Positions 22,536 to 64,000 of a stretch of 64,000 nt of DNA are shown here, piece after piece (positions within the stretch are counted from its first letter, which is position 1; every line of letters starts with the position of its first letter). The stretch is from Pythium myriotylum. Taxonomy: Eukaryota; Oomycota; Peronosporomycetes; Pythiales; Pythiaceae. The notes below the pieces were generated by a model, which saw only the letters and a program-made list of their open reading frames with translations, ran no database searches and was not told the origin of the DNA. The DNA is taken from positions 1,860,001-1,924,000 of the forward strand of contig JALJCQ010000003.1 of NCBI GenBank assembly GCA_023091665.1, given 5' to 3'. Both the position numbers and the translations under genes were made by a program.

Positions 22536-24252
22536 GTGAAGGGAGTCGAATTGCGCATACAGAACAGGTCGAGGAAGATCACTCACATCACTTTTGGTGA
22601 CATTGAATGAGATTCGGCTAGATCTGAGCACAGGCCATGGGAGCTTCGACGCAGTTGCCCAGGATTGAAACAGCCTCGCGATCCGTTCTGTTTCACCGCA
22701 GCATTTCAAACGCGTACACTGAACAGTACTGAACAAAACACGCGGCGAGGTTGAGAAAGGGATGATGAGGATGATGAACAGGGTGATCGCATTCAATGAG
22801 TCTAATTGGAAGGAGTAATCAATCACTTGACTCTTGATTGATTATTTCTTTCAAGTGGATGCATCACGCACATGTGATTCCAAGTTGAACAGCTCCTATG
22901 TACAGTACACCGTATGATCACACAGTTCTGTATGATCAACGATCAAGCCTCGTGTCCTTCGTTGATCAGTGTACTCGCCATGGGTGACTTGCGCTCTTGC
23001 ATGTGATCCTTTACAGTACACTGTATTCTCAGTTCGTGCGTTGATGCTTGGAGTGATGGATTGTCAGGCGCATCCGAGTCTTCCAGTTGCGGCAGCGACA
23101 TCTTGCGCGGGAAGCCCAGTCGGAACGTCTTCAAAAGTCGTCCTCCATCTAGAAGAAGTACCAAAGCAAGGTGGGTATGTTTCGATGCACGGGATCTCAC
23201 CCCAGTCATGAGTACCCTTTTCTGTAAAGTTGCACCTGCTGGTTTTATTTCTCCTCAATCTGATTAAAGATCGCCAACTTCGACAAAGCCGGGCCGTCCG
23301 AATGCCTTGACCCATCTCTATTCTTGGATGGGTCCCCTGAGCACAGCACTGCACACAACTCCATAGAACGGAAAACTGATCGAATCGGTCGGTACAGTAC
23401 ACTGTACATACGTATAGAAGAAGCTGCTGTGTTGGTGGAGATGGACTCGCCTCCGTGTGTGAGAGGGGCGGGTCGGCTTGCCCCTTCTCAAAGGTGCACA
23501 GTGACACTCGGCGACCCAACGAACGAAGTGTCTTCAAGAAAGAGGAGCAACACGCATCGCTTTCTGGCCCTTCGTGCATTATGTAGTGACGTCCGCGTCT
23601 TCCCGGGGCGTCTAAAGCGACCAGACCACTAAAGTCGTCACTCTGACCAGTGTGCTCCAAACCGAGGGTTCTCATCACTGACGCATGTGATCGAACCAAG
23701 CTGCCCGTCCTTGGAGTCTGTCTTCTTCGCGTTGCGTCAGTCGTATCGCATGTACCGAACCAACAAGTCTATGTGACTAATTATTCTTTGTTGAGGACCT
23801 GTCCACAGTACGGTCTTTTTTACAGTGCATTTCTACTTGCCAATCCCAGGAGCCCAACATCACGCCATCATCAAGCACTGAACGAACACAACCAGGGCAG
23901 GAAGAGATGGAGGTTCTGCATTCCATCACCCAGGATCTTGACGTGAAACTGATCAAATTGCACCCTTAAATTCAGTGGACGGACTAACTACTGTAACTCC
24001 TGACTCGACGCGGCAGGCCGCCAGCTGCGTCAGCCTCTCTAAGATCTCCACGAAAATCAGAACAGCCCAGCTCTTCGATCTTTGAAGACTAGAAGCGCTC
24101 CCCAGCGTTGCGTACATACTCGTTTGTGGTCGATTTGAGCATTTGAATGCCCTTAGGATGGCTGTTGAAAGAGTCACCCTAAAGGCAGCCTTGGATGGGT
24201 GTACAGCAGCAGCTCGTACTCGCGCTCAAGACGGCCAGAGCAACGTGAAAGT
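22536..24252. other. Non-coding outer part of the palindrome left arm, with repeated TACAGTACAC motif
   Basis: No defensible gene; the 211-codon frame at 23064-23699 has no domain and is Cys/Arg-rich noise. A near-palindromic motif of the form TACAGTACACTGTA recurs at 22901-22914 (one base off), 23012-23025 and 23393-23406, which may be a regulatory or repeat-derived site. The same sequences are mirrored in the right arm (27360-29077). Confidence 0.5.
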
Positions 24253-24268
24253 GCTCACTCTGCAATTT
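24253..24268 (+). promoter_or_regulatory. Oomycete initiator core promoter of protease gene
   Basis: GCTCACTCTGCAATTT matches 15 of 16 positions of the oomycete initiator consensus GCTCATTYYNCAWTTT, 52 bp upstream of the ATG at 24321. Transcription is expected to start within or near it. Confidence 0.85.
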
Positions 24269-24320
24269 GCGGCCAACCACCCAAAGCCAAGCCAAGCCAG
24301 ACCTCCCAGCCAAGCCAACC

Positions 24321-25424
24321 ATGCAGCTCACCGCCGTCGCCGCCCTCTTCCTCGCCGCGCTCGCCGCCGCTGATGCCACCGTCGCGATTCCTCATGAGCA
24401 CCACGCCCGCTTCCTTGCTGAGAAGGACTCGCTCGCCGAGGAGCTCGCCGCCTGGAAGAACAGCCCGGCCGGTCGCTACGCGAAGGAGCACGGCTTCTAC
24501 AAGGAACCTTCGTCATTCCAGACCGAGTCTATCACCACCAACGGCTCGGACGACCACTTGACGCGTTTCTTCCTGTCCAAGATCACCGTCGAGAAGGCCC
24601 AGGCCGCGAACCCGGAAGCCACGTTCGCCTTGAGCACGCCGTTCTCGCTCATGACCGAGGAGGAGTTTGCCAAGTACGTGAGCAAGAAGGGTACGCTCGG
24701 CAAGGAAGGATCGCTCCGAGGCCTGTACGAGGATGCGACCGAGGTTGTGGAAGGCACCGAGGCGACTGAGGTTGCTCAGGCTACGTCGTTCGATTGGGGC
24801 TCGTCGGGCTGTGTCGCTGGTGTCAAGGACCAGGGCGCATGCGGCTCGTGCTGGGCGTTCTCTGCCATCGGCTCCTTGGAGTCGGCCTACTGCCTCAAGT
24901 ACGGCTCGCTCACGCGTCTCTCGGATCAGCAGGTCACCAGTTGCGACCCGACGTCGGACGGATGTGATGGCGGTTGGCCATCGTGGGCTCTCCAGTACAT
25001 CAAGAGCAACGGCGGTGTGTGCACGGAGTCCGCTTGGCCGTTCACCTCTGGCAGCAGTGGAGTCACCGGTTCTTGCAGATCGTCGTGCACAAAGAAGGCC
25101 ATCACCATCTCGTCCATCACCAGCGTGCCTGCATCGGACGCCGGCTTCGTTGCTGCGATCAACAAGCAGCCAGTAGCCGTGGCCGTGGCCGCGGGCAACC
25201 CGTCCTGGAAGCAGTACACGGGCGGTGTCGTGTCGTCGTGCTCCACCTCGACGCTCGACCACGCCGTGCTCGCAGTCGGCTACGACGCCACGTCATTCCG
25301 TCTCAAGAACCAGTGGGGCACGTCTTGGGGCGCCGGCGGCTACATCAACCTCAAGCGTATCTCGTCGACCTCGGCTGCGTGCAGCATCATCAACAGCAAG
25401 GCGGTGTACCCGAACGTGGCCTAA
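24321..25424 (+). CDS. Secreted papain-like cysteine protease (C1A), copy 1
   Basis: Encodes 367 residues. Residues 1-19 form a signal peptide (hydrophobic Ala/Leu core, likely cut after ADA). A propeptide follows, with a FALSTPFSLMTEEEFAKYV block reminiscent of the inhibitory prodomain of papain proteases, then the mature enzyme from about residue 155. Active site: Gln171 and Cys177 in KDQGACGSCWAF, His314 in LDHAVLAVGY, Asn330 in KNQWGTSWG; disulphide Cys positions and CDGGWP are kept. It should cleave proteins outside the cell; a role in nutrition or in host interaction is inference. The start is the ATG 52 bp after the initiator element. No introns. GC-rich codons differ from the surrounding transposons. 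Identical to the copy at 26188-27291. Confidence 0.95.
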   Translation: MQLTAVAALFLAALAAADATVAIPHEHHARFLAEKDSLAEELAAWKNSPAGRYAKEHGFYKEPSSFQTESITTNGSDDHLTRFFLSKITVEKAQAANPEATFALSTPFSLMTEEEFAKYVSKKGTLGKEGSLRGLYEDATEVVEGTEATEVAQATSFDWGSSGCVAGVKDQGACGSCWAFSAIGSLESAYCLKYGSLTRLSDQQVTSCDPTSDGCDGGWPSWALQYIKSNGGVCTESAWPFTSGSSGVTGSCRSSCTKKAITISSITSVPASDAGFVAAINKQPVAVAVAAGNPSWKQYTGGVVSSCSTSTLDHAVLAVGYDATSFRLKNQWGTSWGAGGYINLKRISSTSAACSIINSKAVYPNVA

Positions 25425-26187
25425 GCCTTTGGGTCTGCGTGTTTCTCTTGCTGTCGCTCTCTCTCTCCGCGACCGGCACCAGTTCAGAACTCTCGCAGTA
25501 GCCCGCGAGAAGTGTCGTTTCTCTTCTATCGTGCGTTTACATTTCCAGCGACAATTAATTGATGTTACTAGCTTTTTAGCACAACGCTGTTCTCCGCGCT
25601 CCCATGTCGTTTGACGCTGTTGAAGATGGTAACGACTACTGAATAACAGTAACAATTTGAGCAGCACCGACAAATTGATCTGCGAGGTCCTTGGAATGAT
25701 TGGCAACCGCAACATATTTTGAATGGTACTGCGTAGAAACAGTTACAATGTTCATACGTCGAGGTACTGAGAAGCAGTTGCAACGTTCATCCGCCACTCC
25801 TAAGCGAAGTCGGAGTGGCGGATGAACGTTGCAACTGCTTCTCAGTACCTCGACGTATGAACATTGTAACTGTTTCTACGCAGTACCATTCAAAATATGT
25901 TGCGGTTGCCAATCATTCCAAGGACCTCGCAGATCAATTTGTCGGTGCTGCTCAAATTGTTACTGTTATTCAGTAGTCGTTACCATCTTCAACAGCGTCA
26001 AACGACATGGGAGCGCGGAGAACAGCGTTGTGCTAAAAAGCTAGTAACATCAATTAATTGTCGCTGGAAATGTAAACGCACGATAGAAGAGAAACGACAC
26101 TTCTCGCGGGCTACTGCGAGAGTTCTGAACTGGTGCCGGTCGCGGAGAGAGAGAGCGACAGCAAGAGAAACACGCAGACCCAAAGGC
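25425..26187. other. Shared 3' region between convergent protease genes, palindrome centre
   Basis: Two mirror-image 3' UTRs face each other. Each has CT-rich and CAATTAATTG segments conserved in all protease copies in the window. The 11-bp spacer of the palindrome (25801-25811) is in the middle. Mirror-image frames of 71 and 140 codons here are by-products of the 3' UTR and antisense sequence. Confidence 0.7.
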
Positions 26188-27291
26188 TTAGGCCACGTTC
26201 GGGTACACCGCCTTGCTGTTGATGATGCTGCACGCAGCCGAGGTCGACGAGATACGCTTGAGGTTGATGTAGCCGCCGGCGCCCCAAGACGTGCCCCACT
26301 GGTTCTTGAGACGGAATGACGTGGCGTCGTAGCCGACTGCGAGCACGGCGTGGTCGAGCGTCGAGGTGGAGCACGACGACACGACACCGCCCGTGTACTG
26401 CTTCCAGGACGGGTTGCCCGCGGCCACGGCCACGGCTACTGGCTGCTTGTTGATCGCAGCAACGAAGCCGGCGTCCGATGCAGGCACGCTGGTGATGGAC
26501 GAGATGGTGATGGCCTTCTTTGTGCACGACGATCTGCAAGAACCGGTGACTCCACTGCTGCCAGAGGTGAACGGCCAAGCGGACTCCGTGCACACACCGC
26601 CGTTGCTCTTGATGTACTGGAGAGCCCACGATGGCCAACCGCCATCACATCCGTCCGACGTCGGGTCGCAACTGGTGACCTGCTGATCCGAGAGACGCGT
26701 GAGCGAGCCGTACTTGAGGCAGTAGGCCGACTCCAAGGAGCCGATGGCAGAGAACGCCCAGCACGAGCCGCATGCGCCCTGGTCCTTGACACCAGCGACA
26801 CAGCCCGACGAGCCCCAATCGAACGACGTAGCCTGAGCAACCTCAGTCGCCTCGGTGCCTTCCACAACCTCGGTCGCATCCTCGTACAGGCCTCGGAGCG
26901 ATCCTTCCTTGCCGAGCGTACCCTTCTTGCTCACGTACTTGGCAAACTCCTCCTCGGTCATGAGCGAGAACGGCGTGCTCAAGGCGAACGTGGCTTCCGG
27001 GTTCGCGGCCTGGGCCTTCTCGACGGTGATCTTGGACAGGAAGAAACGCGTCAAGTGGTCGTCCGAGCCGTTGGTGGTGATAGACTCGGTCTGGAATGAC
27101 GAAGGTTCCTTGTAGAAGCCGTGCTCCTTCGCGTAGCGACCGGCCGGGCTGTTCTTCCAGGCGGCGAGCTCCTCGGCGAGCGAGTCCTTCTCAGCAAGGA
27201 AGCGGGCGTGGTGCTCATGAGGAATCGCGACGGTGGCATCAGCGGCGGCGAGCGCGGCGAGGAAGAGGGCGGCGACGGCGGTGAGCTGCAT
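26188..27291 (-). CDS. Secreted papain-like cysteine protease (C1A), copy 2
   Basis: Exact mirror of the copy at 24321-25424: 367 residues, signal peptide 1-19, Gln171, Cys177, His314 and Asn330 all present. The two genes converge, with 763 bp between stop codons. Promoter and 5' UTR are also identical, so both should be expressed alike; convergent transcripts over the shared palindromic 3' region could pair as double-stranded RNA. If the palindrome is an assembly artefact this copy does not exist. Confidence 0.88.
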   Translation of the reverse strand: MQLTAVAALFLAALAAADATVAIPHEHHARFLAEKDSLAEELAAWKNSPAGRYAKEHGFYKEPSSFQTESITTNGSDDHLTRFFLSKITVEKAQAANPEATFALSTPFSLMTEEEFAKYVSKKGTLGKEGSLRGLYEDATEVVEGTEATEVAQATSFDWGSSGCVAGVKDQGACGSCWAFSAIGSLESAYCLKYGSLTRLSDQQVTSCDPTSDGCDGGWPSWALQYIKSNGGVCTESAWPFTSGSSGVTGSCRSSCTKKAITISSITSVPASDAGFVAAINKQPVAVAVAAGNPSWKQYTGGVVSSCSTSTLDHAVLAVGYDATSFRLKNQWGTSWGAGGYINLKRISSTSAACSIINSKAVYPNVA

Positions 27292-27343
27292 GGTTGGCTT
27301 GGCTGGGAGGTCTGGCTTGGCTTGGCTTTGGGTGGTTGGCCGC

Positions 27344-27359
27344 AAATTGCAGAGTGAGC
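27344..27359 (-). promoter_or_regulatory. Oomycete initiator core promoter, copy 2
   Basis: Mirror copy of the initiator at 24253-24268, on the minus strand, 52 bp upstream of the ATG at 27291. Confidence 0.82.
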
Positions 27360-29077
27360 ACTTTCACGTTGCTCTGGCCGTCTTGAGCGCGAGTACGAGC
27401 TGCTGCTGTACACCCATCCAAGGCTGCCTTTAGGGTGACTCTTTCAACAGCCATCCTAAGGGCATTCAAATGCTCAAATCGACCACAAACGAGTATGTAC
27501 GCAACGCTGGGGAGCGCTTCTAGTCTTCAAAGATCGAAGAGCTGGGCTGTTCTGATTTTCGTGGAGATCTTAGAGAGGCTGACGCAGCTGGCGGCCTGCC
27601 GCGTCGAGTCAGGAGTTACAGTAGTTAGTCCGTCCACTGAATTTAAGGGTGCAATTTGATCAGTTTCACGTCAAGATCCTGGGTGATGGAATGCAGAACC
27701 TCCATCTCTTCCTGCCCTGGTTGTGTTCGTTCAGTGCTTGATGATGGCGTGATGTTGGGCTCCTGGGATTGGCAAGTAGAAATGCACTGTAAAAAAGACC
27801 GTACTGTGGACAGGTCCTCAACAAAGAATAATTAGTCACATAGACTTGTTGGTTCGGTACATGCGATACGACTGACGCAACGCGAAGAAGACAGACTCCA
27901 AGGACGGGCAGCTTGGTTCGATCACATGCGTCAGTGATGAGAACCCTCGGTTTGGAGCACACTGGTCAGAGTGACGACTTTAGTGGTCTGGTCGCTTTAG
28001 ACGCCCCGGGAAGACGCGGACGTCACTACATAATGCACGAAGGGCCAGAAAGCGATGCGTGTTGCTCCTCTTTCTTGAAGACACTTCGTTCGTTGGGTCG
28101 CCGAGTGTCACTGTGCACCTTTGAGAAGGGGCAAGCCGACCCGCCCCTCTCACACACGGAGGCGAGTCCATCTCCACCAACACAGCAGCTTCTTCTATAC
28201 GTATGTACAGTGTACTGTACCGACCGATTCGATCAGTTTTCCGTTCTATGGAGTTGTGTGCAGTGCTGTGCTCAGGGGACCCATCCAAGAATAGAGATGG
28301 GTCAAGGCATTCGGACGGCCCGGCTTTGTCGAAGTTGGCGATCTTTAATCAGATTGAGGAGAAATAAAACCAGCAGGTGCAACTTTACAGAAAAGGGTAC
28401 TCATGACTGGGGTGAGATCCCGTGCATCGAAACATACCCACCTTGCTTTGGTACTTCTTCTAGATGGAGGACGACTTTTGAAGACGTTCCGACTGGGCTT
28501 CCCGCGCAAGATGTCGCTGCCGCAACTGGAAGACTCGGATGCGCCTGACAATCCATCACTCCAAGCATCAACGCACGAACTGAGAATACAGTGTACTGTA
28601 AAGGATCACATGCAAGAGCGCAAGTCACCCATGGCGAGTACACTGATCAACGAAGGACACGAGGCTTGATCGTTGATCATACAGAACTGTGTGATCATAC
28701 GGTGTACTGTACATAGGAGCTGTTCAACTTGGAATCACATGTGCGTGATGCATCCACTTGAAAGAAATAATCAATCAAGAGTCAAGTGATTGATTACTCC
28801 TTCCAATTAGACTCATTGAATGCGATCACCCTGTTCATCATCCTCATCATCCCTTTCTCAACCTCGCCGCGTGTTTTGTTCAGTACTGTTCAGTGTACGC
28901 GTTTGAAATGCTGCGGTGAAACAGAACGGATCGCGAGGCTGTTTCAATCCTGGGCAACTGCGTCGAAGCTCCCATGGCCTGTGCTCAGATCTAGCCGAAT
29001 CTCATTCAATGTCACCAAAAGTGATGTGAGTGATCTTCCTCGACCTGTTCTGTATGCGCAATTCGACTCCCTTCACC
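27360..29077. other. Non-coding outer part of the palindrome right arm
   Basis: Mirror of 22535-24252: no defensible gene. It ends at 29077, directly against LINE reverse transcriptase sequence, so the frame open from 28786 is a chance fusion of arm sequence to the LINE. Confidence 0.6.
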
Positions 29078-51323: not shown

Positions 51324-51747
51324 GCGTCGACGAGGAGCGTCACGCTGAGCCCAAGGAAGGTCTCGCGAGGTGGTCGGATCAATGCAGACAGTGGAGGCAG
51401 CGATTGTCTTCGTCGGCAACGTCCGAGCAACATAACGCGCTGATCACGCTGACTGGATGGTCCTGTGACATGCGCTAATCATGGTCTGCGACGTGTGAAA
51501 GAACACCACGGATGGTCAGCAGCAGGAAGTTGAAGAGAGGGCGATGACCAGGTCGCGTCGCGCTATCCCAAAATACCATCAAGAAAGAATACTTTGAAGA
51601 GAGCAGTCCAATTCAAATCGTACTGCTCTTTTGCGAGCTCTTCACGGACCTCGCTGATTGATTTGTTATTGCTGCTCAGGTGTCGTCACCAACTTCGAAA
51701 GCATGCAATCGAAGCCCATAGCACAAAATATGGGAGCACGGACACAC
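51324..51747. other. Intergenic region between paralog C and palindrome 3
   Basis: No gene seen. The right edge is where protease-associated repeat sequence begins. Confidence 0.4.
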
Positions 51748-51950
51748 ATGATTATGCTCAAAAGCTAGTAACATCAATTAATTGTCGCTGGAAATGTAAA
51801 CACACGATATTAGAGAAACGACACGACTCGCGGGCTACTGCGAGAGTTCTGAACTGGTGCCGGTCGCAGAAAAGAAAGCGAGCTCGAGAGCAAGCTCGAG
51901 ATCGAGGGCGAGAGCGAAAGCGAGCAAGAGAAAGACGCAGACCCAAAGGC

Positions 51951-53054
51951 TTAAGCCACGTTCGGGTACACCGCCTTGCTGTTGATGACGCTGCACGCAG
52001 CCGAGGTCGACGAGATACGCTTGAGGTTGATGTAGCCGCCGGCGCCCCAGGACGTGCCCCACTGGTTCTTGAAACGGAACGACGTGGCGTCGTAGCCGAC
52101 CGCGAGCACGGCGTGGTCGAGCGCCGAGGTAGAGCAGGACGACACGACACCGCCCGTGTACTGCTTCCAGGACGGGTTGCCCGCGGCCACGGCCACGGCC
52201 ACCGGTTGCTTGCTGATCGCAGCAACAAAGCCGGCGTCCGACGCAGGCACGCTGGTGATGGACGAGATGGTGATGGCCTTCTCCGTGCACGACGAGCTAC
52301 ACGAGCCGGTCTCACCCGTGTATCCCGAAGTGTACGGCCAGCCGGACTCCATGCATACACCGCCGTTGCTCTGGATGTACTGAAGAGCCCACGACGGCCA
52401 ACCACCGTCACATCCGTCCGAGGTCGGGTCGCAGTTGGTGACTTGTTGCTCCGAGAGCAGCGTGAGCGAGCCGTACTTGAGGCAGTAAGCCGATTCGAGC
52501 GAGGCAATGGACGAGAACGCCCAGCACGAGCCGCATGAGCCTTGGTCCTTGACACCAGCGACACAACCCGACGAGACCCAATCGAACGACGTAGCCTGAG
52601 CAACCTCAGTCGCCTCGGTGCCTTCCACAACCTCGGTCGCCTCTTCGAAGAGACCGCGAAGAGAGTTGCCCTTGCCGAGCGTACCCTTCTTGCTCACGTA
52701 CTTGGCAAACTCCTCCTCGGTCATGAGCGAGAACGGCGTGCTCAAGGCGAACGTGGCTTCCGGGTTCGCGGCCTGAGCCTTCTCGACGGTGATCTTGGAG
52801 AGGAAGAAACGCATCAAGTGGTCGTCCGAGGCGTTGGTAGTGGTCGATGCGATGCGGCTCGCCGCATCCTCTTTGTAGAAACCGTGCTCCTTCGCGTAGC
52901 GACCGGCCGGGCTGTTCTTCCAGGCGGCGAGCTCCTCGGCGAGCGAGTCCTTCTCAGCAAGGAAGCGGGCGTGGTGCTCATGAGGAATCGCGACGGTGGC
53001 ATCAGCGGCGGCGAGCGCGGCGAGGAAGAGGGCGGCGACGGCGGTGAGCTGCAT
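51951..53054 (-). CDS. Secreted papain-like cysteine protease (C1A), copy 3
   Basis: Encodes 367 residues with the same signal peptide, propeptide and catalytic set (Gln and Cys in KDQGSCGSCWAF, His in LDHAVLAVGY, Asn in KNQWGTSWG) as copies 1 and 2. Differences cluster in the propeptide (KEDAASRIASTTTNASDD) and around the active-site cleft (GSCGSCWAFSSIAS, ESGWPYTSGYTG), so substrate preference may differ. The 3' UTR has a CTCGAG-type purine-pyrimidine stretch absent from copy 1. Initiator promoter at 53107-53122. Lies head-to-head with interrupted copy 4, about 3 kb apart. Confidence 0.95.
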   Translation of the reverse strand: MQLTAVAALFLAALAAADATVAIPHEHHARFLAEKDSLAEELAAWKNSPAGRYAKEHGFYKEDAASRIASTTTNASDDHLMRFFLSKITVEKAQAANPEATFALSTPFSLMTEEEFAKYVSKKGTLGKGNSLRGLFEEATEVVEGTEATEVAQATSFDWVSSGCVAGVKDQGSCGSCWAFSSIASLESAYCLKYGSLTLLSEQQVTNCDPTSDGCDGGWPSWALQYIQSNGGVCMESGWPYTSGYTGETGSCSSSCTEKAITISSITSVPASDAGFVAAISKQPVAVAVAAGNPSWKQYTGGVVSSCSTSALDHAVLAVGYDATSFRFKNQWGTSWGAGGYINLKRISSTSAACSVINSKAVYPNVA

Positions 53055-53106
53055 GGTTGGCTTGGCTGGGAAGTCTGGCTTGGCTTGGCTTTGGGTGGTT
53101 GGCCGC

Positions 53107-53122
53107 AAATTGCAGAGTGAGC
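53107..53122 (-). promoter_or_regulatory. Oomycete initiator core promoter, protease copy 3
   Basis: Minus strand GCTCACTCTGCAATTT, 15 of 16 matches to the consensus, 52 bp upstream of ATG 53054. Confidence 0.85.
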
Positions 53123-54220
53123 TCACTCGCATTGCTCTGGCCGTCTTCAGCGTGAGCTTAAGGTGTTGGCCATTGCAGCACTGTACACGTGTGCACCACT
53201 ACAAGATCGCCCTACGCACAGCACTGAGAAACACGCCCAGCGTTGATCCCAGGTCGAGACTCGTTTCTAGATGGTGGTGGAGGAGGCCGAGGCCGAGGTG
53301 GACGTGGAGGAGTTTCTGATTCGCTTCGAGATCTTGAAGCGATCGACGCATCCGCCGGCTGCCGCCGATCGACCGCACAGTGGTTCAAGTCGTCCACTCA
53401 ACTCGACTGCTACTGTATTATAGCAGTTCTGTGATGAACACATCGAAGGATTGTTGGGTGGTAAGGACGACTCGTTCTTCTGGTCCCGGAATGCTTTTGG
53501 TTTGGCTATCCCTTGTCGTATTGACCATGGTGATGTAGTGATTGCAATGTCCTTCGAGACTTTATCTAGGACAAATCGCGCGTCTGATGTGATGAACCTG
53601 ATGGTTCATGACACGGAGGAACCGCGACTTTCTCGGCAAGTGAAAAGAAACTTCAAAGTTTTCTCCATGAAACGAAAGAACCGATCCACAAACTCATAGG
53701 TATGTCGGATATGTTGTCTCGGGCGAGCAAGTCCTCGAGCTCAATTCGACGCCAAACTGCAGTACATCTGGCGTGACTGATTATCGGTACTTCCATTCGT
53801 AAGTTTGGGATGATATTTTTGGCATCAAGGCTTGATTGACCCCCTGCAGGGACCGCGGGAAGGTGCCATCAGCCTCGAGTGCGATATTGTAACGTGCTCT
53901 CGAAATCACTTCGCACATCACTGACGACTATCCGCTGAGAAGGGGCGCATTGGCGCCCTTCTCACGGAGAAGTGTGCTCTTCACTTAGAATTCGCAGTGA
54001 GATACAGTACTGTATCTTTCTCCGCATGGTTTTAGTTTTCCCACGAGTGCGTGGTAGACGCAAGGAAAATTAGGGAACTAGCGGCATCGGCATAGCACTC
54101 GAGGAGGTGCTGAAAAATACACCACGTGTCTGAGAAGGGGCACCCTAGTTCACTCAGAATTGACTGCCACGAACTGGACGAACTGGTTGGTAGAACTTAT
54201 GTGATTTTTCCTCTCGTGGT

Positions 54221-54271
54221 AATGATTGCAGACCTCATCAATGAGACTCATTGATGAGCTCTGCAATCATT
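54221..54271. repeat. 25-bp-arm hairpin, 1-nt loop
   Basis: Arms 54221-54245 and 54247-54271 pair with one mismatch. The centre is CATCAATGAG-A-CTCATTGATG. Confidence 0.85.
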
Positions 54272-54562
54272 CTCAGATCAACAAGGTAGGTATGTTCCAA
54301 TACTAGTACACGGTGTGAGGAACCAAAGTCTCGATCTAGTGCCGTGTTAGTGACAGGATTCCGGTGGGAGCAATGACTTTATTCGACTCTTCCCGCAGCC
54401 TCGCGTAGATGGTCCAGATATTGAGCATCAATAGCTGTGTGGAGGGGACGACCGGCCCAGTTGTCTCCTTTAGACAGCACTGGCCCACTCTGTCGGACTG
54501 ACACGATCACAGAACGTTTTGGTGATACCTGTGCCGACTATGGCATAGAACACACCAGCTCG

Positions 54563-54588
54563 CAGCGAAAGACAGGTGTCTTTCGCTG
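54563..54588. repeat. 12-bp-arm hairpin, 2-nt loop
   Basis: CAGCGAAAGACA and TGTCTTTCGCTG, perfect arms around GG. Confidence 0.85.
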
Positions 54589-54686
54589 TGAACATCTCGT
54601 ACACCACGGCCGTGGGTGTTCTCTGTTCAGTAATGCATGCACTGTGAGATCGTACTACAGTACCATCCAACACTACGAAACACACC

Positions 54687-54778
54687 GACACGCTGTCTCG
54701 ACGAGACAGCGTGTCGAGTTCTAACTGATCCTCCTACACCACGAGAGTCTCGTGGTGTTGGAGGATCAGTTAGAACTC
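54687..54778. repeat. Two abutting hairpins (14-bp and 31-bp arms)
   Basis: 54687-54715: GACACGCTGTCTCG arms, 1-nt loop, perfect. 54716-54778: 31-bp arms with one mismatch and a 1-nt loop at 54747. The two are directly adjacent, which can form a double cruciform. Confidence 0.88.
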
Positions 54779-55976
54779 GGGTGCCCCATCTCAGATACGT
54801 AGCTTTTCTTTTCAGCGTCTCCTAAGAGTGTTTCGCCAAAACTTTCGAGCGTCTACTACACTGTACGAAGTCGTCGGATAAACCAAAAGCTTGCGGATGG
54901 AGACCACTGCGGAACAATGTCACTGAACACGGTAGTACAGATCAAGACTCTGCTCCAAAATCTAAGGGTGCTCTCACCATGTATTGGAACATACCGACCT
55001 TGTGGATCTGATAATGATTGCAGATCTCATTAATGAGTGGATTCCTTTCGTGGAATTGAAATATCACATAAGTTCCACCAACCAGTTCGTTCAGTTCGTG
55101 GATACAAACTCTCAGTGAAGAGCACACTTCTCCGTGAGAAGGGCGCCAATGCGCCCCTTCTCAGCGGATAGTCGTCAGTGATGTGCGAAGTGATTTCGAG
55201 AGCACGTTACAATATCGCACTCGAGGCTGATGGCACCTTCCCGCGGTCCCTGCAGGGGGTCAATCAAGCCTTGATGCCAAAAATATCATCCCAAACTTAC
55301 GAATGGAAGTACCGATAATCAGTCACGCCAGATGTACTGCAGTTTGGCGTCGAATTGAGCTCGAGGACTTGCTCGCCCGAGACAACATATCCGACATACC
55401 TATGAGTTTGTGGATCGGTTCTTTCGTTTCATGGAGAAAACTTTGAAGTTTCTTTTCACTTGCCGAGAAAGTCGCGGTTCCTCCGTGTCATGAACCATCA
55501 GGTTCATCACATCAGACGCGCGATTTGTCCTAGATAAAGTCTCGAAGGACATTGCAATCACTACATCACCATGGTCAATACGACAAGGGATAGCCAAACC
55601 AAAAGCATTCCGGGACCAGAAGAACGAGTCGTCCTTACCACCCAACAATCCTTCGATGTGTTCATCACAGAACTGCTATAATACAGTAGCAGTCGAGTTG
55701 AGTGGACGACTTGAACCACTGTGCGGTCGATCGGCGGCAGCCGGCGGATGCGTCGATCGCTTCAAGATCTCGAAGCGAATCAGAAACTCCTCCACGTCCA
55801 CCTCGGCCTCGGCCTCCTCCACCACCATCTAGAAACGAGTCTCGACCTGGGATCAACGCTGGGCGTGTTTCTCAGTGCTGTGCGTAGGGCGATCTTGTAG
55901 TGGTGCACACGTGTACAGTGCTGCAATGGCCAACACCTTAAGCTCACGCTGAAGACGGCCAGAGCAATGCGAGTGA

Positions 55977-55992
55977 GCTCACTCTGCAATTT
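55977..55992 (+). promoter_or_regulatory. Oomycete initiator core promoter, protease copy 4
   Basis: GCTCACTCTGCAATTT, mirror of 53107-53122, 52 bp upstream of ATG 56045. The promoter is intact although its gene is interrupted. Confidence 0.83.
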
Positions 55993-56698
55993 GCGGCCAA
56001 CCACCCAAAGCCAAGCCAAGCCAGACTTCCCAGCCAAGCCAACCATGCAGCTCACCGCCGTCGCCGCCCTCTTCCTCGCCGCGCTCGCCGCCGCTGATGC
56101 CACCGTCGCGATTCCTCATGAGCACCACGCCCGCTTCCTTGCTGAGAAGGACTCGCTCGCCGAGGAGCTCGCCGCCTGGAAGAACAGCCCGGCCGGTCGC
56201 TACGCGAAGGAGCACGGTTTCTACAAAGAGGATGCGGCGAGCCGCATCGCATCGACCACTACCAACGCCTCGGACGACCACTTGATGCGTTTCTTCCTCT
56301 CCAAGATCACCGTCGAGAAGGCTCAGGCCGCGAACCCGGAAGCCACGTTCGCCTTGAGCACGCCGTTCTCGCTCATGACCGAGGAGGAGTTTGCCAAGTA
56401 CGTGAGCAAGAAGGGTACGCTCGGCAAGGGCAACTCTCTTCGCGGTCTCTTCGAAGAGGCGACCGAGGTTGTGGAAGGCACCGAGGCGACTGAGGTTGCT
56501 CAGGCTACGTCGTTCGATTGGGTCTCGTCGGGTTGTGTCGCTGGTGTCAAGGACCAAGGCTCATGCGGCTCGTGCTGGGCGTTCTCGTCCATTGCCTCGC
56601 TCGAATCGGCTTACTGCCTCAAGTACGGCTCGCTCACGCTGCTCTCGGAGCAACAAGTCACCAACTGCGACCCGACCTCGGACGGATGTGACGGTGGT

Positions 56699-56713
56699 TG
56701 GCCGTCGTGGGCT
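56699..56713. repeat. 15-bp target-site duplication, left copy
   Basis: TGGCCGTCGTGGGCT, identical to 61681-61695; marks the insertion as one retrotransposition event. Confidence 0.95.
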
Positions 56714-56785
56714 TTGACTTTGAAGGTGAGGTCTATTGGATCGCAATTTAATGAACCCTATAGCCGGGTGGTACTACCCTATTCT

Positions 56786-59700
56786 CTACCGCAGCTGTTG
56801 GCGGAGTATGTGGCGAGCTTGCGATTCGGTGAAGTCGGAGGCCAGGAACGCTTCGAGCCTGCCGTGGTGGCTTCTGGGGTGGGTGTGCGGGCCTTGCACA
56901 CTGGTGTGGGAGTCCATAGCTGCGTTGGCTGCTGAGTCGGCCATTTTGTTGAATGCCCGCAGGTGATGGTGCCACTCCGTTATCCGGAGAGCATCTGCTA
57001 GCCGGCGTGCCGGGGCGTAAAGTTTGCGAAGAGCTGTGTTCCGTGGTGGGCGGTAACGTTGGAGTTGGCTAAGGATCAGTGCACTGTCCCCAACAACTTC
57101 CACTTGCCAGTGGTTGGCTGCTGCTGCTCGGAGACCCGCAAGTAGGCCGAGGTATTCTGCTTGATTGTTTGTCATGTCGGGGCGCGCGTAGGACATGCTT
57201 GCACTCCACACTATCTCCGCTGCCGTGGCATCTTCGTCAACCGCGATGATAACGGCGCCGGACCCTCCTGGTCCCGGATTCCCTCGAGAACCACCATCGA
57301 AGAAGAGAACGTGTCGTCGGCCGCCTACTGGGCTCAACGATGGACCCATTCCTTGTCTGCCAAGTGCCTGAATGAGATGGAACCTGGGGTCCCGAACACG
57401 CGGGACCTGTGGCAATCTGTCGCACAGGCCACGCAGGGAGGCGCGCAATACCGCTAGATGGTAGACTCCGGCTTGATTGGGGGACCATGCGATTTCCTCG
57501 TCCACAATGTTGTGTCGCCATCTCCAAATACACCCCAGAGTGGTGAGCACATGCTGCTGCCACGCCGCTGCTGCTGTATCGTGAACCAGCGTGATGGCGT
57601 CGACGTCATCCGGGGATATCTGGGACAAGGCTGCCCTGTACCAGAGCTGGGCTGGGAAATGGTGCAGCTGGAGGCCGAAGACGAACTGACGAAGGTCTCC
57701 TACTGCCTTGGTGGTCGTGCCGTCAAGATCCCATATCTTGAAGAGCTGGTTCCAAAGCACTTGTGCGTTCGGACATGCCCAGAATATGTGTGCAATTGTT
57801 CCGCCGGCTCCGCCTTCGCCACAGTGCGGGCATCCTCTGCGCTGATTCAATCTGTCCCACCCAGAGATTCTACCCCCTTTTATCTTCCGCATGAGAAGAC
57901 GCTGATGGGACGAGGCCCCTGGGATTCTGTCGGGTTCCCTCCATGATAACTTCTGCAGGGCTGCGTGAATGACCGGGTCTGTGCTTTGCGTGAGTGTCTC
58001 GCGTGCCTGAGCTTCTTGAGCTGCACGCGCTGTCGTCTGATTTTCCAGGAGTTTACGGGCCGCTCTTGGGCTGGTGGCAAGCGGTTTCCTCCAGATCATG
58101 CGCTCTATACCTATCCACGGGTGGCTTAACACCACCGCGCCAGGTGAGTCAATAGTTTTCCTGATGAGTGCGGCTGCATCCTTGGGGGAGGAGACCTCCC
58201 CGAGTGTGAACTGCGAGTTTGGTGAGGGTTCCCATAGCAGGTCAATGCGCCCGGCACGTCTTCGGAGGCGCCAAACGTCTGTTGTTGCCGGAACGACTCG
58301 GAGCATGTCGTCGTCATCATGCAGCCCGAGAACAGCCGGATAGTTGGCGACGATGACATCACATAGTAACCGGAACTGGTCAGATTCCACTCTGGAGAGC
58401 GGGAAATTGCACCTTTTACTGCGGAAAGAGATCGTGCCGTTCTTATCAGGCCTGATATCTAGTGCGTCCCCGATGGTGTCCCGTGTTCTCGCGACTGCCT
58501 TGAAGGTTATCGAGGTTGGGCAGCTTCCGTCCTGGAGCAAAAGGATTTCGTCATCAGTCACTCTCGCTGCAAGCAACGCGTGAATATCGAAGTGACCGTG
58601 TGTGTCATCTTGGAGAGAGCGGAGCTGCCGAAGTTCGAGCAGATGCTCGGAGTAGTCACATACGTACCAGTCATCCTCCCAACGCCGGACTTTACAGGCT
58701 GTGCTCCACAAGGCCGGGATTAATCTGATCGTGGCGTCAGTTTCTTCCTCTGTGCGCGGTTGTGAGCCCAGGGCATCGATCTGCCGTAGGCCAGTCTTTG
58801 CCAGTGAGGATTCATGTCGCAGCTGGGGCTGTGGTGTCCGAGATGGCCTCGGAACCCATCTCCAATTGCTGTTCCCTTGAAGGCGAATCTGACCTAATTC
58901 TGTTCGAATGTCGCCCGTGCTCTGTCCCCACCTTTTCGACGTCGTGAAGCTGAGCTTCTTGAACTCCACTGCGAGGTCGGGTACCGCCAGCCCTCCTCGT
59001 GCCATGGGTTGGGCTGCCGATGCGCGACTCATCCATGCCTTGCGTCCTGTCATGACTTCGACGAAGCTACCGTGCCAGACGTAGTGATGTACGAGTTTCT
59101 GGAGCTGGGCTATCCGGGACGCCGTCGGCCATTCATGCCTGCCAACGAAGAGGATCTTCGGGACGATGATCGCTCGGGCAATCTGAACTCGCTGGAGCAG
59201 ATCGGTGGTCTTAAGTTGGGCAAAGTGCAGCCTCGCTCTTAGTTGCTGGAGCGCAATTTCCCACACCTTGGACGCTGCTGGATATATCATGAGCTGAGCT
59301 CCCAGCAACCTGGCTGCCTCTCCTTTCCTGATCCTTGGGAATCCGATGTCTGTCACGTCCGTCGGCCATCCTTCCGGCCCTAGCGGTGCTGCGATGCATT
59401 TGCTAACATTGATGTGGAGTCCGGAGACTGCCGCAAACCTATCGAGTGCCTCCTTGAGCGCCCGTGTGTGTTTGTGGTGACGAAGATACACCGTCGTATC
59501 GTCCGCGAAGCCTACTGCCGTGACGGTTTGCCCTGACGGCAGACGAATTCCTTGGATACTTTTTTCACGAGCGAGGAGATCGTAGAGCGTGTCGACTGCC
59601 AGAATAAAAAGAACAGGCGCGAGGGGACATCCTTGCCGGATCCCGTTGAGAATGTCTTGGTCTTCCGAGGCACTGTCTTCGGCGAGATAGGTAGCTGTTG

Positions 59701-61489
59701 TTGCCATGTGGAGCTGGTCAACTGCCGTGATGACCTTCGTTGGAAACCCCAGTCGTCTGAGGGCGAGAATGAGAAAGCGTCGATCAAGAGTATCGTAGGC
59801 TTTGGCGAAGTCTAGCAGCACCGCAAGCGCCGACGAGTCCACTTGGCCAACTCGAGCCAGTGAGCGCAAAGCCGTCCATACGTCTATCGCATCGTGGACC
59901 TGCCTTCCATCCACGAACCCAAATTGGGTGGGAGCAACCAGCTTGGGGACTTGGGCAGAAATTCTATTAACCCTTTCGCGAATGCGAGCTGAACAATAGG
60001 AACTGTATCAATACAAATTTCAAGTGTAGTGAATGCCAATCGTACAAAAAATGCCCGTTTGAACTTCCCGCTGATCTGATTACGCACTTTCCATAACACA
60101 CAACTCACCCACTTTTGGCGAGATATATCACAAGATTGGCGAAATACAATGCATTTATTGAATAGAAATACTACCCTAAAATGCCAATCGTACAAAAAAT
60201 GCTCGTTCGAGAGGTGCTTTCTCACCTGGTTTTGTAAACAACTATGAAACGGGCAAAATTTGTACGGTCGTTCGCGAAAGGGTTAAGCAGAAGCCGTGTA
60301 AAGATCTTGTAGTCCGTGTTTAACAGCGCGATAGGGCGGAAGTCCAGTCCCGTGCGTGGTGCGGTGTTCTTGGGTACACATACAATCGACGCTTGCCGAA
60401 AGCTTGGCGGGAAGATCGCTTGGTCGAACCAGTTATTGAACATAAGGGTGAGAATCGGGACGATGTGGGTTGCGTTGTCTCGGTACCAATCATTTGGGAG
60501 GCCATCTGGTCCTGCTGCTTTACCTCTGGGGCATGCCAGCAGGGCGGTCATCACCTCCTCCTCCGTGAAGGCCTCCGACCAATGACTGCCATCTGCTGTT
60601 GCCCTTGGCGGCGACAAATCCCCGAAGAAAAGGTCTTGAGCTTTCTCTGAGAGGGGTCCACGTTGGGTGATTGTCTTCCACGCGGCGGCTGCGACATCGG
60701 CCGCAGAGTCACGATTGTTGGATCGCGGCAATTCCTCTAGGGAGACGCAGGCGGGTTTTACCCTGACTCTCTTGAAGAAGTTGCGGATTACGTCTGCCGA
60801 GGAGCCGATGTATTTCGCGAAGGTTCGCTGGACACGTCGTTGCGACCGTGACTGGGCATCACGAATGACTTCTGAGCGAAGGCGCCGCGCGCGTGCCAGG
60901 GGATCTATCGTGAGTCTTTCGAACGCTGTGGTGATGCCTTCGATGGTGGGCTCGATGGGCTGGGCGATATTAGCCGCGGTCTCTTGTGCTTGGCGTAGGG
61001 CGGCTCGGGTGCGCCTTACGCGGCGTTTGTATGCACGGCGGAGCTTTTTCCGATGGGCCGCTATGCCCTGCAAAATGCTCGTTTTGATTCGCAGTTTTAG
61101 AGGGTCCCACCGTGCCGCTGTCGCCGCGGCCGCTGCGCCTTGCACTTGTGTGCTCAACGCACCCAAGGCATGGATAGTCACGTCCCTTGCGATACTCCCA
61201 CAGCCTGATGGCAGTGGATACCGAACTCCCCGTGGTCTTCGTCTTCGTCCTCGTCTAGATGGTCGAGTTGGTGCGGACGACGAAAGAAGAATCATTCTGA
61301 CTTCGTCATGATCACTAGAGCAGGGTGGAGGACGAGTTTCGATGGACGCTACACGCCGGATAGCCGTGGTACTAATATAGATTCGGTCAAGACGACTTGA
61401 CTCGAGGACTCCTGAGTGCGAGTATCGAAATGTATGATGCCGCGCCTGGAAGTCGTGTCGTCGATTCGGCGAGGTTGCTTCGAGTTGAG
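56786..61489 (-). pseudogene. LINE ORF: endonuclease remnant, RT, zinc finger, C-terminal RNase H
   Basis: The frame is open from 61487. It starts with the end of an AP-type endonuclease (SRLDRIYIS, then SDHDEV), so the LINE is truncated inside that domain. RT follows: AAGPDGLPNDWY, LLDFAKAYDTLD, GIRQGCPLAP, catalytic FADD. Then a CCHC-like region (CPHCG ... HIFWAC) and an archaeal-type RNase H with all four acidic sites (FFDGGSRGNPGPG, NNQAEYLG, GDSALI, MADSAANAAMD). A MITE at 59972-60282 splits RT between the TRLLLN block and QFGFVDGRQVHDAID; with one TTAA kept and the MITE left out, the frame is continuous. About 1,450 codons remain otherwise open, so the copy is young. 72 bp of 3' UTR follow. 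Confidence 0.92.
59972..60282. mobile_element. piggyBac-type MITE in a TTAA site (311 bp)
   Basis: Ends CCCTTTCGCGAA and TTCGCGAAAGGG are perfect inverted repeats and are flanked by TTAA at 59968-59971 and 60283-60286. TTAA target and CCC-starting ends are the marks of piggyBac elements. No coding capacity. Internal subrepeat GCCAATCGTACAAAAAATGC occurs twice. It needs a transposase from elsewhere. Confidence 0.93.
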
Positions 61490-61680
61490 TTTTTTTTTTT
61501 ACAAACCCAAAGCAACTATTACTGCGACTTCTTCGGCTTTGCAGACTTTTTCGTGGGCAGCGTCTCCTGGAGGCGCTGCTGCTGCTGCTCGCGCACGCGC
61601 GCGGCCTCTCTTCGCAGCACGGCGACTCGCTCGGGGTCGTTGGCTTCGCGCAGCGTTCGCTGGACGTGCGCGCGTACCTC
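61490..61680 (-). pseudogene. Retro-copied 3' end of an unidentified host mRNA with poly(A)
   Basis: Minus strand 61680-61519 codes for a 53-residue C-terminus: HVQRTLREANDPERVAV, a Gln-rich helix (REQQQQRLQ), and a Lys-rich end (KKSAKPKKSQ), then stop, 18 bp of UTR and A11 (61500-61490). GC content and codon use resemble host genes and not the LINE. The protein is small and helical and might be a mitochondrial or ribosomal assembly factor, but I cannot name it. It lies between the LINE 5' break and the target-site duplication. Confidence 0.8.
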
Positions 61681-61695
61681 TGGCCGTCGTGGGCT
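61681..61695. repeat. 15-bp target-site duplication, right copy
   Basis: Perfect match to 56699-56713. The reading frame of the protease continues straight after it. Confidence 0.95.
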
Positions 61696-62333
61696 CTTCA
61701 GTACATCCAGAGCAACGGCGGTGTATGCATGGAGTCCGGCTGGCCGTACACTTCGGGATACACGGGTGAGACCGGCTCGTGTAGCTCGTCGTGCACGGAG
61801 AAGGCCATCACCATCTCGTCCATCACCAGCGTGCCTGCGTCGGACGCCGGCTTTGTTGCTGCGATCAGCAAGCAACCGGTGGCCGTGGCCGTGGCCGCGG
61901 GCAACCCGTCCTGGAAGCAGTACACGGGCGGTGTCGTGTCGTCCTGCTCTACCTCGGCGCTCGACCACGCCGTGCTCGCGGTCGGCTACGACGCCACGTC
62001 GTTCCGTTTCAAGAACCAGTGGGGCACGTCCTGGGGCGCCGGCGGCTACATCAACCTCAAGCGTATCTCGTCGACCTCGGCTGCGTGCAGCGTCATCAAC
62101 AGCAAGGCGGTGTACCCGAACGTGGCTTAAGCCTTTGGGTCTGCGTCTTTCTCTTGCTCGCTTTCGCTCTCGCCCTCGATCTCGAGCTTGCTCTCGAGCT
62201 CGCTTTCTTTTCTGCGACCGGCACCAGTTCAGAACTCTCGCAGTAGCCCGCGAGTCGTGTCGTTTCTCTAATATCGTGCGTTTACATTTCCAGCGACAAT
62301 TAATTGATGTTACTAGCTTTTGAGCATGATCAT
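61696..62333. repeat. Palindrome 3, right arm, part after the insertion
   Basis: Mirror of 51748-52385, with one base change in the 3' UTR (cgtgCgttt against cgtgTgttt) and one near the end. The arm ends near GAGCATGATCATG. Confidence 0.9.
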
Positions 62334-64000
62334 GTTGGTTAACTTTAAAACGGGCCACAAATGGGCCCTGACCACAATTTGGGCCACACTAAAAATAGAG
62401 CGAAATATAAGTGTTATGGCTCACGCCAACCTTGCATCCCTCAAGTGCGGGCCCACACACGCATATCTCTTGCCATCGCGGCGGCGATGCGAAGTTGCGT
62501 AATCACTACGGCCTCCATATACCACAAGTACAAGCATTTGCATGTCCTCGACATTGAGCCTGAGCTTGTAGTCGACCGTCCTAGGGATCCAATTTAAGAT
62601 TCTGCACGCTATTATGGATGCCATCTTGCTTGCGGACACCTCGGGGAGAGATTCTGGTGTATTGTTCATAGTGCGCTCATCGCACAGGATCCTGGCCGAT
62701 CTCAGAAACACGGTACTATTCGAAGAAACATAACCACTTGGCTCAACACCGCGCAAGCTCCAGTGGTGAGCGGACGGCGGCTTTCAATTTCCGAAAGTCC
62801 GAGATGATTTCCTCCTCCTTGGTGCCACCGCACTGCAAAGGTGATCCTCCGCGACGAGCGAAGTGGCGGCGGCCGTCGATCGCATCCTTCCGGTCACCAT
62901 GCTCAGCGGTCCGAAGGCACGCATCTCTCCAGCGGCTAGGCTTCGCCGCCACGGCTGGCGGTATCTATAGCCACCTCGGGGTTCTCTGTCCTCCGAGACT
63001 TCTACGAGCTCCTGAAGAAGACCAAACCGTCGAGGTGTTAGTCGCTAAGGCGGGGAAAGCGCTACTCGCAGTGGGCGCGTGGTCCGACGGATGGTATGGA
63101 CGTGATTACATCTCCATCCTTCTACAACTCATGGGCATCCGGGACATGTAACGGGGGTGTGCTGGCAAGCGCAACTTCACCGCTCTCGCGGTCTATCCGA
63201 TCCTCGGCGCCGATTTGCTACTCAACAGATCTGGGCACGCCTTCAGCGCTGGGATTTGCCTGTCCTCAACCTCGATTTCAGGACTGTTCGGTAACGCATC
63301 CAACTGCGCTGGTTACGCCAACGACTATCTTCTTCCGGCATAAAGCGGCCGTTTACCCCGACCCATGAGATCGCGACTTCCGAATCCACGGCCTCCAAGA
63401 TCCTTCTCGACCTTGCGCAAGAGCTACCCGAGCCCTGGTAGGGACCACTCCCCGGACTATTCCCCTCCTTGAGCCCGGTGGATGCGGTGTGGCCATTGTA
63501 CGTGCTCATCGTGCCTATTGCACGGCCACCCTGCTCTGGAGCGCGGCGGTTTGTCGCTACACCCCAAGTACCAGGGTTTCCTCCTCGTCGGCCTCTCAGC
63601 TGGTCGATCCTTTCACCTCCCTATGATTAAGGTCATCGGCACCAACGCGCTGCTGCTCCGCCAGCTTCGCGAACATCGGCCACCGTGATGGTGCATGTAC
63701 CGACGACAATCACGAAGATCGCATGTCCCAAGTAGAGGTTGACTTATAGCGCTGCTGAGTTCCTCCCCGTGCATGGCCCGCATCCTCCTCTCATCGACGG
63801 GGGACCTTCAACCACGGCGGATTTCAACAAGTGCTTCATGGCGACCAACACATTCACGAAATGCTTGACATCGAATAGTGCGGGCAATCGCAAGTTTGCT
63901 ATCGGCTATCGAGCGGAAATAAGCGACTATTCCCTGCCGGGCAAGATCGCCCGAGAATCCCGCACACTGTGCGACTCGGGGTCTACCAACATGCTCGAGC
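62334..64000. other. Unassigned stretch, possible retroelement relic at the right edge
   Basis: Short frames only. A minus-strand frame at 62421-62756 (111 codons) looks partly protein-like but has no recognisable domain. At 63827-64000 (plus) a continuous frame reads into LCDSGSTNML, which resembles a retropepsin active site (D-S/T-G); the rest lies beyond the window. No LTR or other motif supports it yet. Confidence 0.3.

Follow-up and report, generated by a model that had tools for sequence, protein, structure and literature searches.

Introduction

Chimeras in which a long interspersed nuclear element (LINE) is joined to a copy of a cellular RNA are known from mammals and from Magnaporthe (PMC13174262, PMC2104539), and it is unsettled whether they form by template jumping of the reverse transcriptase (RT) or by prior ligation of the two RNAs (PMC13174262, PMC8857657). 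The present analysis concerns a chimera between a LINE and a host mRNA in the oomycete Pythium myriotylum, located in a 64,000-nucleotide window (C3:1860001-1924000) of a 58.7-Mb genome assembly in 55 contigs. Read along the minus strand, the insert consists of 180 nucleotides (nt) of cellular mRNA, a run of eleven adenines (A11), and a LINE that begins within its endonuclease domain and continues to its 3′ end. The origin that we consider probable (about 0.82) is that the LINE RT switched templates during target-primed reverse transcription, leaving the LINE RNA for the poly(A) end of a selenoprotein-S-like mRNA that had been spliced. The chimeric product is directly observed, and from it we infer the order of events and the jump itself.

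The MINE and related LINE chimeric retrogenes of Magnaporthe (Gogvadze 2007, PMC2104539) share this layout: a cellular RNA copy lies 5′ of a 5′-truncated LINE in the same orientation, both are enclosed by one duplication (10-20 bp there, 15 bp here), and no homology at the seam was reported. They differ in that the 5′ part of the 31 MINEs is mainly a full-length non-coding RNA, WEIRD, whereas here it is a 5′-truncated, spliced coding mRNA with a remnant of its poly(A), in one case. The features given as common to LINE chimeric retrogenes are a full-length 5′ part, a truncated LINE or other RNA as the 3′ part, direct repeats and random truncation sites (PMC2104539). The present insert has the truncated 3′ LINE and the short direct repeats, and its two parts have the same orientation and are joined directly; its 5′ part is not full-length.

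Human mRNA/LINE-1 chimeras (Law and Burns 2026, PMC13174262) likewise carry a spliced mRNA 5′ of the LINE within one target-site duplication. However, 15 of the 17 chimeras with an mRNA or long non-coding RNA map to transcript starts, six end exactly at splice donors, and the LINEs are mostly near full length, whereas here a transcript 3′ end with an A-run is joined to a truncated LINE. In the 452 Alu/LINE-1 chimeras of the same study the RNA is mostly in sense and 5′ of the LINE within one duplication, as here, but most of the Alu parts are full-length retroelements rather than host mRNAs. As most human cases map to transcript starts and Magnaporthe 5′ parts are listed as full-length, it is unusual for a coding mRNA to be entered at its poly(A) end; as far as the cited papers go, the locus represents a known process in a new lineage with an unusual acceptor end.

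The aRNH-bearing L1 elements of oomycetes (Ustyantsev 2017, PMC5348765) combine an APE-type endonuclease, RT and a C-terminal RNase H in ORF2, and the same architecture is present, as judged by Pfam matches, in L008, a long copy of the LINE studied here. The covered parts of that paper mention no chimera. The first-pass annotation of the window, which was made from the sequence and already proposed the chimera, knew of no well-described oomycete case, and searches of the open-licence PMC literature listed no paper whose title or abstract opening describes an oomycete or stramenopile LINE chimera.

Results

One insertion within a cysteine protease gene

The insert is 4,967 bp long (56699-61695 with its duplications) and represents a single event inside a papain-family cysteine protease gene. 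A perfect 15-bp direct repeat, TGGCCGTCGTGGGCT, is found beside the LINE 3′ end (56699-56713) and again beside the mRNA piece (61681-61695). Elsewhere in the window this sequence occurs exactly only once, on the minus strand at 52386, and that occurrence lies in an inverted, near-identical paralog of the protease gene (51746-53992, minus strand). Its alignments to the left flank (1,607 bp) and to the right flank (655 bp) each contain 2 mismatches and have precisely the 15-bp target in common; i.e., the paralog carries the empty site. On the plus strand, the open frame with the 5′ part of the interrupted gene extends from 55901 to 56713 (Peptidase_C1 profile positions 3-73; 55901 is the start of the frame and not necessarily of the gene), and the 3′ part extends from 61681 through the frame end at 62130 (profile positions 76-219). 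The gene is split by the insert and very probably inactivated. The first-pass annotation had placed the insert at these coordinates within one perfect 15-bp duplication, and had described both an A11 seam and a LINE starting inside its endonuclease domain and running to its 3′ end; each of these points was borne out.

The mRNA copy has features of a processed pseudogene, namely an absent intron and an A-run, and could thus have been inserted first, with the LINE entering its poly(A) tail later. Such a history would be expected to leave an A-run or a separate duplication on both sides of the LINE. Instead, a single duplication was found, enclosing both parts, and the LINE 3′ end directly adjoins the protease target. 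The A-run is also adjoined by the LINE and not by the duplication, which is not the poly(A) position of a processed pseudogene. Two separate insertions were rejected on the strength of the one duplication and of the LINE 3′ end directly at the target; we consider this sequence of events scarcely credible.

The mRNA piece and its parent gene

The 180 nt at 61501-61680 (minus strand) were identified, by genome-wide matching and by alignment to the parent gene, as having been copied from the 3′ part of a selenoprotein-S-like mRNA after its splicing. The copy contains 51 codons in the frame of the parent, a TAA stop and 18 nt of 3′ untranslated region; the order of host codons, stop and short untranslated region had been recognised in the first-pass annotation, but its count of 53 codons is replaced by 51. 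The parent gene (C15:3384218-3384466) is the sole other match of the mRNA piece in the genome, in which no second copy was found besides the intron-containing parent and the intronless insert. The match to the parent is interrupted by a 74-nt GT-AG intron (L006 1756-1829), and the exons are joined exactly in the insert. Apart from one 16-nt gap, the spliced parent and the copy are identical at 181 of 182 aligned positions, and since the larger exon matches the 4-kb parent locus with E = 5e-69, a chance match is excluded.

When spliced by hand, the parent gene encodes a protein of 94 amino acids (aa), with a weak match to Pfam Selenoprotein_S (PF06936; E 0.00046, under the curated cut-off) and one database homologue (P0001, 53% identical). 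The parent frame starts upstream of the copied part, i.e., only part of the cellular RNA is represented in the mRNA piece. The 16-nt gap falls between 61674 and 61675, with 6 nt of the copy lying 5′ of it. As the parent frame at this point (SAYATRAHVQ) resembles P0001, the 16 nt were most likely lost from the copy rather than gained by the parent. The gap was not part of the first-pass annotation, and neither was the 312-bp TTAA-flanked insertion in the LINE described below.

The A11 seam

The seam (61490-61500, minus strand) is a run of exactly 11 As, and comparison with the parent identifies it as what remains of the poly(A) tail of the mRNA. No fewer than 10 of the 11 As are absent from the parent DNA, which reads TTTATTC after the one A that was possibly templated, and no A-run of 6 or more is present near the 3′ end of the parent gene. 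A parent gene elsewhere, with an intron that the insert lacks and without the A-run at this place, is what the first-pass annotation had led us to look for. As the intron is absent from the insert and A11 from the parent DNA, the template was a spliced, polyadenylated mRNA.

The LINE adjoins A11 directly, with zero extra bases. In five long copies of the element (L007-L011) the common sequence CTCAACTC is preceded by ACATCAG, in place of which the chimera has A11 and the mRNA; the seam therefore shows no homology.

The composition of the seam bears on a further explanation, in which the two sequences were already fused as RNA, either by splicing or by 5′ transduction involving a LINE in the neighbourhood of the parent gene. 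A fusion of this kind is favoured by Law and Burns for human mRNA/LINE-1 chimeras (PMC13174262). In those chimeras, however, the joined parts mostly come from transcript starts, with splice donors at the join in the six cases noted above, whereas here the joined sequence belongs to the last exon, beyond the stop codon, and has an A-run at the seam. No match of this LINE was found in the 4 kb around the parent gene. The retained poly(A) seam makes a strong case against splicing and 5′ transduction as the means of joining, and an RNA-level fusion is accordingly very improbable.

The locus is known from assembled sequence, and an assembly artefact or a DNA-level rearrangement was also considered. 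Exact intron removal, an A-run that is absent in the parent DNA and a perfect duplication would be unexpected from either misassembly or DNA recombination, and we give this explanation next to no weight.

The LINE part and its long copies

The LINE part (56714-61489, minus strand) extends from the endonuclease interior through RT and RNase H (Pfam RVT_1 and RVT_3) to the 3′ end, with approximately 99% identity to the five long copies. It comprises about 4,460 bp of LINE and a 316-bp insertion (the 312-bp element plus its TTAA duplication). Its start at 61489 corresponds to approximately residue 317 of ORF2 in L008, within the Exo_endo_phos match of that copy (126-377), and RVT_1 and RVT_3 (RNase H) are matched in the same L008 ORF; what is left of the endonuclease domain in the chimera was without a Pfam match. 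The LINE 3′ end consists of AGTCAAA-like repeats, with no poly(A).

Upstream of the seam position, all five long copies carry LINE sequence and not the mRNA fragment with A11. This upstream part is common to the five; four of them end 5′ within 2 nt of each other, and the fifth starts inside the ORF1 region. The mRNA fragment and A11 as native LINE 5′ sequence, which the first-pass annotation had named as an outcome that would count against a chimera, were therefore rejected, since five of five long copies differ from them. The other such outcome, an intron-containing copy at this locus, was not seen either.

ORF1 is 1,333 aa long in the long copy L022 (L022 2892-6893) and matches no Pfam family at E 0.01. 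It contains a stretch, DGHCLYSAI, which we take to be reminiscent of OTU-type cysteine proteases. Near the end of ORF1, about 262 bp that the other four long copies share are missing from L007. When the six sequences were compared, 20 substitutions across about 4,460 positions were private to the chimera and 8-14 to each of the long copies.

The RT was compared with a database by similarity (7,989 candidates scored), and its named relatives are consistent with an oomycete. Among the best 120 of 157 matches, the named relatives included Pythium insidiosum and Pythium oligandrum (52% identity), the best-scoring match was from Globisporangium splendens (40% identity) and the match of highest identity (54%) was unnamed; algal and amphibian RTs stood lower in the list.

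Control insertions

Other insertions of the LINE served as controls: the mRNA piece in long copies, or LINE 5′ ends that often lay off their duplication, would weaken the case for a chimera. The LINE 3′ end gave at least 44 matches (40 of 97 candidates scored), of which 14 had no assigned locus and lay outside the control set, and both ends were resolved in 16 distinct other insertions, comprising five long copies, six truncated close copies and five distant ones. The duplication adjoins the LINE 5′ end in all five long copies and in six of seven truncated close copies (with one extra base in L017 and one mismatch, seen by eye, in L018).

Six of the 17 more distant loci L039-L055 gave usable repeats and the other 11 did not; among these, L039 has a repeat that is distant from the LINE end and was left aside, and L042 and L043 overlap. 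As L054 and L055 share one duplication they were counted once, and in the resulting five insertions (L044, L045, L047, L049 and L054/L055) the LINE extends up to the duplication, although no protein-level match covers the initial ~37 nt in L049 or ~9 nt in L054. No A-run of 7 or more is present in these five inserts.

The first-pass annotation had suggested a search for further LINE 5′ ends joined to A-runs and coding sequence, and none was found among the 16 resolved insertions; i.e., there is one chimera against 16 ordinary insertions, and the locus is therefore a single case.

Outside the resolved set is the close copy L012 (C12:4096800-4101500), whose 5′ flank is another repeat family. Its 3′ end lacks the usual AGTCAAA end and runs into A12-C-A11-C and sequence that appears retroelement-like by eye.

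Further features of the locus

The nested element in the LINE part is 312 bp long (59971-60282) and is flanked by a TTAA duplication (59967-60286 in total). It has 12-bp terminal inverted repeats, CCCTTTCGCGAA, and its site is a single TTAA in all five long LINE copies. At least nine further copies are present elsewhere in the genome, at 98-99% identity. The element may be of a piggyBac-like type. The arrival of this TTAA-type element in the LINE part would postdate the insertion of the chimera, or would have taken place in an unseen source copy.

The window contains two inverted pairs of papain-family protease genes, at 24219-27393 and 51746-62335. The members of the interrupted pair are 99.7-99.9% identical, a divergence below that of the private changes of the LINE part (20 in 4,460). 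The high identity of this pair may hint at a recent duplication or gene conversion.

Discussion

A template jump most likely produced the locus, in the following order of events. The target would have been nicked within the protease gene, and target-primed reverse transcription would have started at the 3′ end of the LINE RNA. After about 4.46 kb, the RT would have quit the LINE RNA and entered the A-tail of the mRNA without homology at the seam. About 190 nt of the mRNA would then have been copied, past the stop codon and over the exon junction, with a slip or an inner jump of the RT over 16 nt in a GC-rich stretch. Finally, the end of the cDNA would have been joined to the target at 2 nt (CA) common to mRNA and target. 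The jump is supported by the one perfect 15-bp duplication around both parts, with the mRNA piece at one copy of the duplication and the LINE 3′ end at the other. The shared orientation of the parts, the exact loss of the intron, the A-run without a counterpart in the parent DNA and the different 5′ sequence of the five long copies point the same way. The RT of Bombyx mori R2, a retrotransposon without long terminal repeats, jumps between separate templates in vitro (PMC8857657), giving a continuous cDNA over two templates as proposed here, albeit in a different LINE.

The main rival explanation is that the two RNAs were ligated beforehand: an RNA ligase would have attached a broken LINE RNA, through its 5′ end, to the poly(A) 3′ end of the mRNA, and the continuous chimeric RNA would then have been copied. 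RNA ligation is a reported route for U6/LINE-1 chimeras (PMC13174262 and PMC8857657, citing earlier work). The genome contains two matches to the RNA_ligase family PF09414 above the cut-off, and ligation of a 3′-OH tail is conceivable on that account. However, RtcB, the ligase of the reported route, has no match in the genome (PF01139, 0 candidates; the search was positive in 9 of 14 control genomes, all nine bacteria or archaea, with no eukaryote among the controls), and the known ligation route is thereby weakened. An ordinary poly(A) tail ends in a 3′-OH, which is not known to be the donor end of RtcB, and pre-ligation also requires a free LINE fragment with a 5′-phosphate. PF09511 had zero matches in the genome and zero in the control genomes too, and is therefore uninformative. 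Taken with these observations, ligation before reverse transcription is unlikely, although less so than the other alternatives. One of the PF09414 matches (L061) lies in a long ORF, of which 699 aa were read, with phosphatase-like and P-loop stretches recognised by eye.

Several points weigh against a template jump. A pre-ligated RNA would give an identical product, and the case is a single one, known from assembled sequence. The truncation sites of M. grisea have the consensus GCC*A/U (PMC2104539), a motif that is not at the present seam, which reads CAG|CTC in this one case. Nor was an unusual hairpin found at the seam: 61% of 520 LINE windows have a fold no less stable than that of the 60 nt preceding it. 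The template jump proposed in the first-pass annotation is nevertheless supported, and it is from the features of the locus that we infer a jump in preference to the copying of a pre-ligated RNA. It is also reasonably likely, with less assurance than for the origin of this one insert, that the RT of an oomycete LINE with an AGTCAAA-like end is able to leave the element partway and continue on the poly(A) 3′ end of an ordinary spliced mRNA, in a genome with no detectable RtcB.

The poly(A) seam, together with the lack of an RtcB match, makes the locus, in a lineage that is neither animal nor fungal, a clean test case provided by nature. If the proposed origin is correct, it would provide natural evidence for true template jumping, and not RtcB ligation, in the formation of LINE chimeras. 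The end of one gene has here been copied, intronless, into another gene along with a LINE, and a template jump of this kind would be a route by which gene 3′ ends are spread as 5′ appendages of LINEs in stramenopiles.

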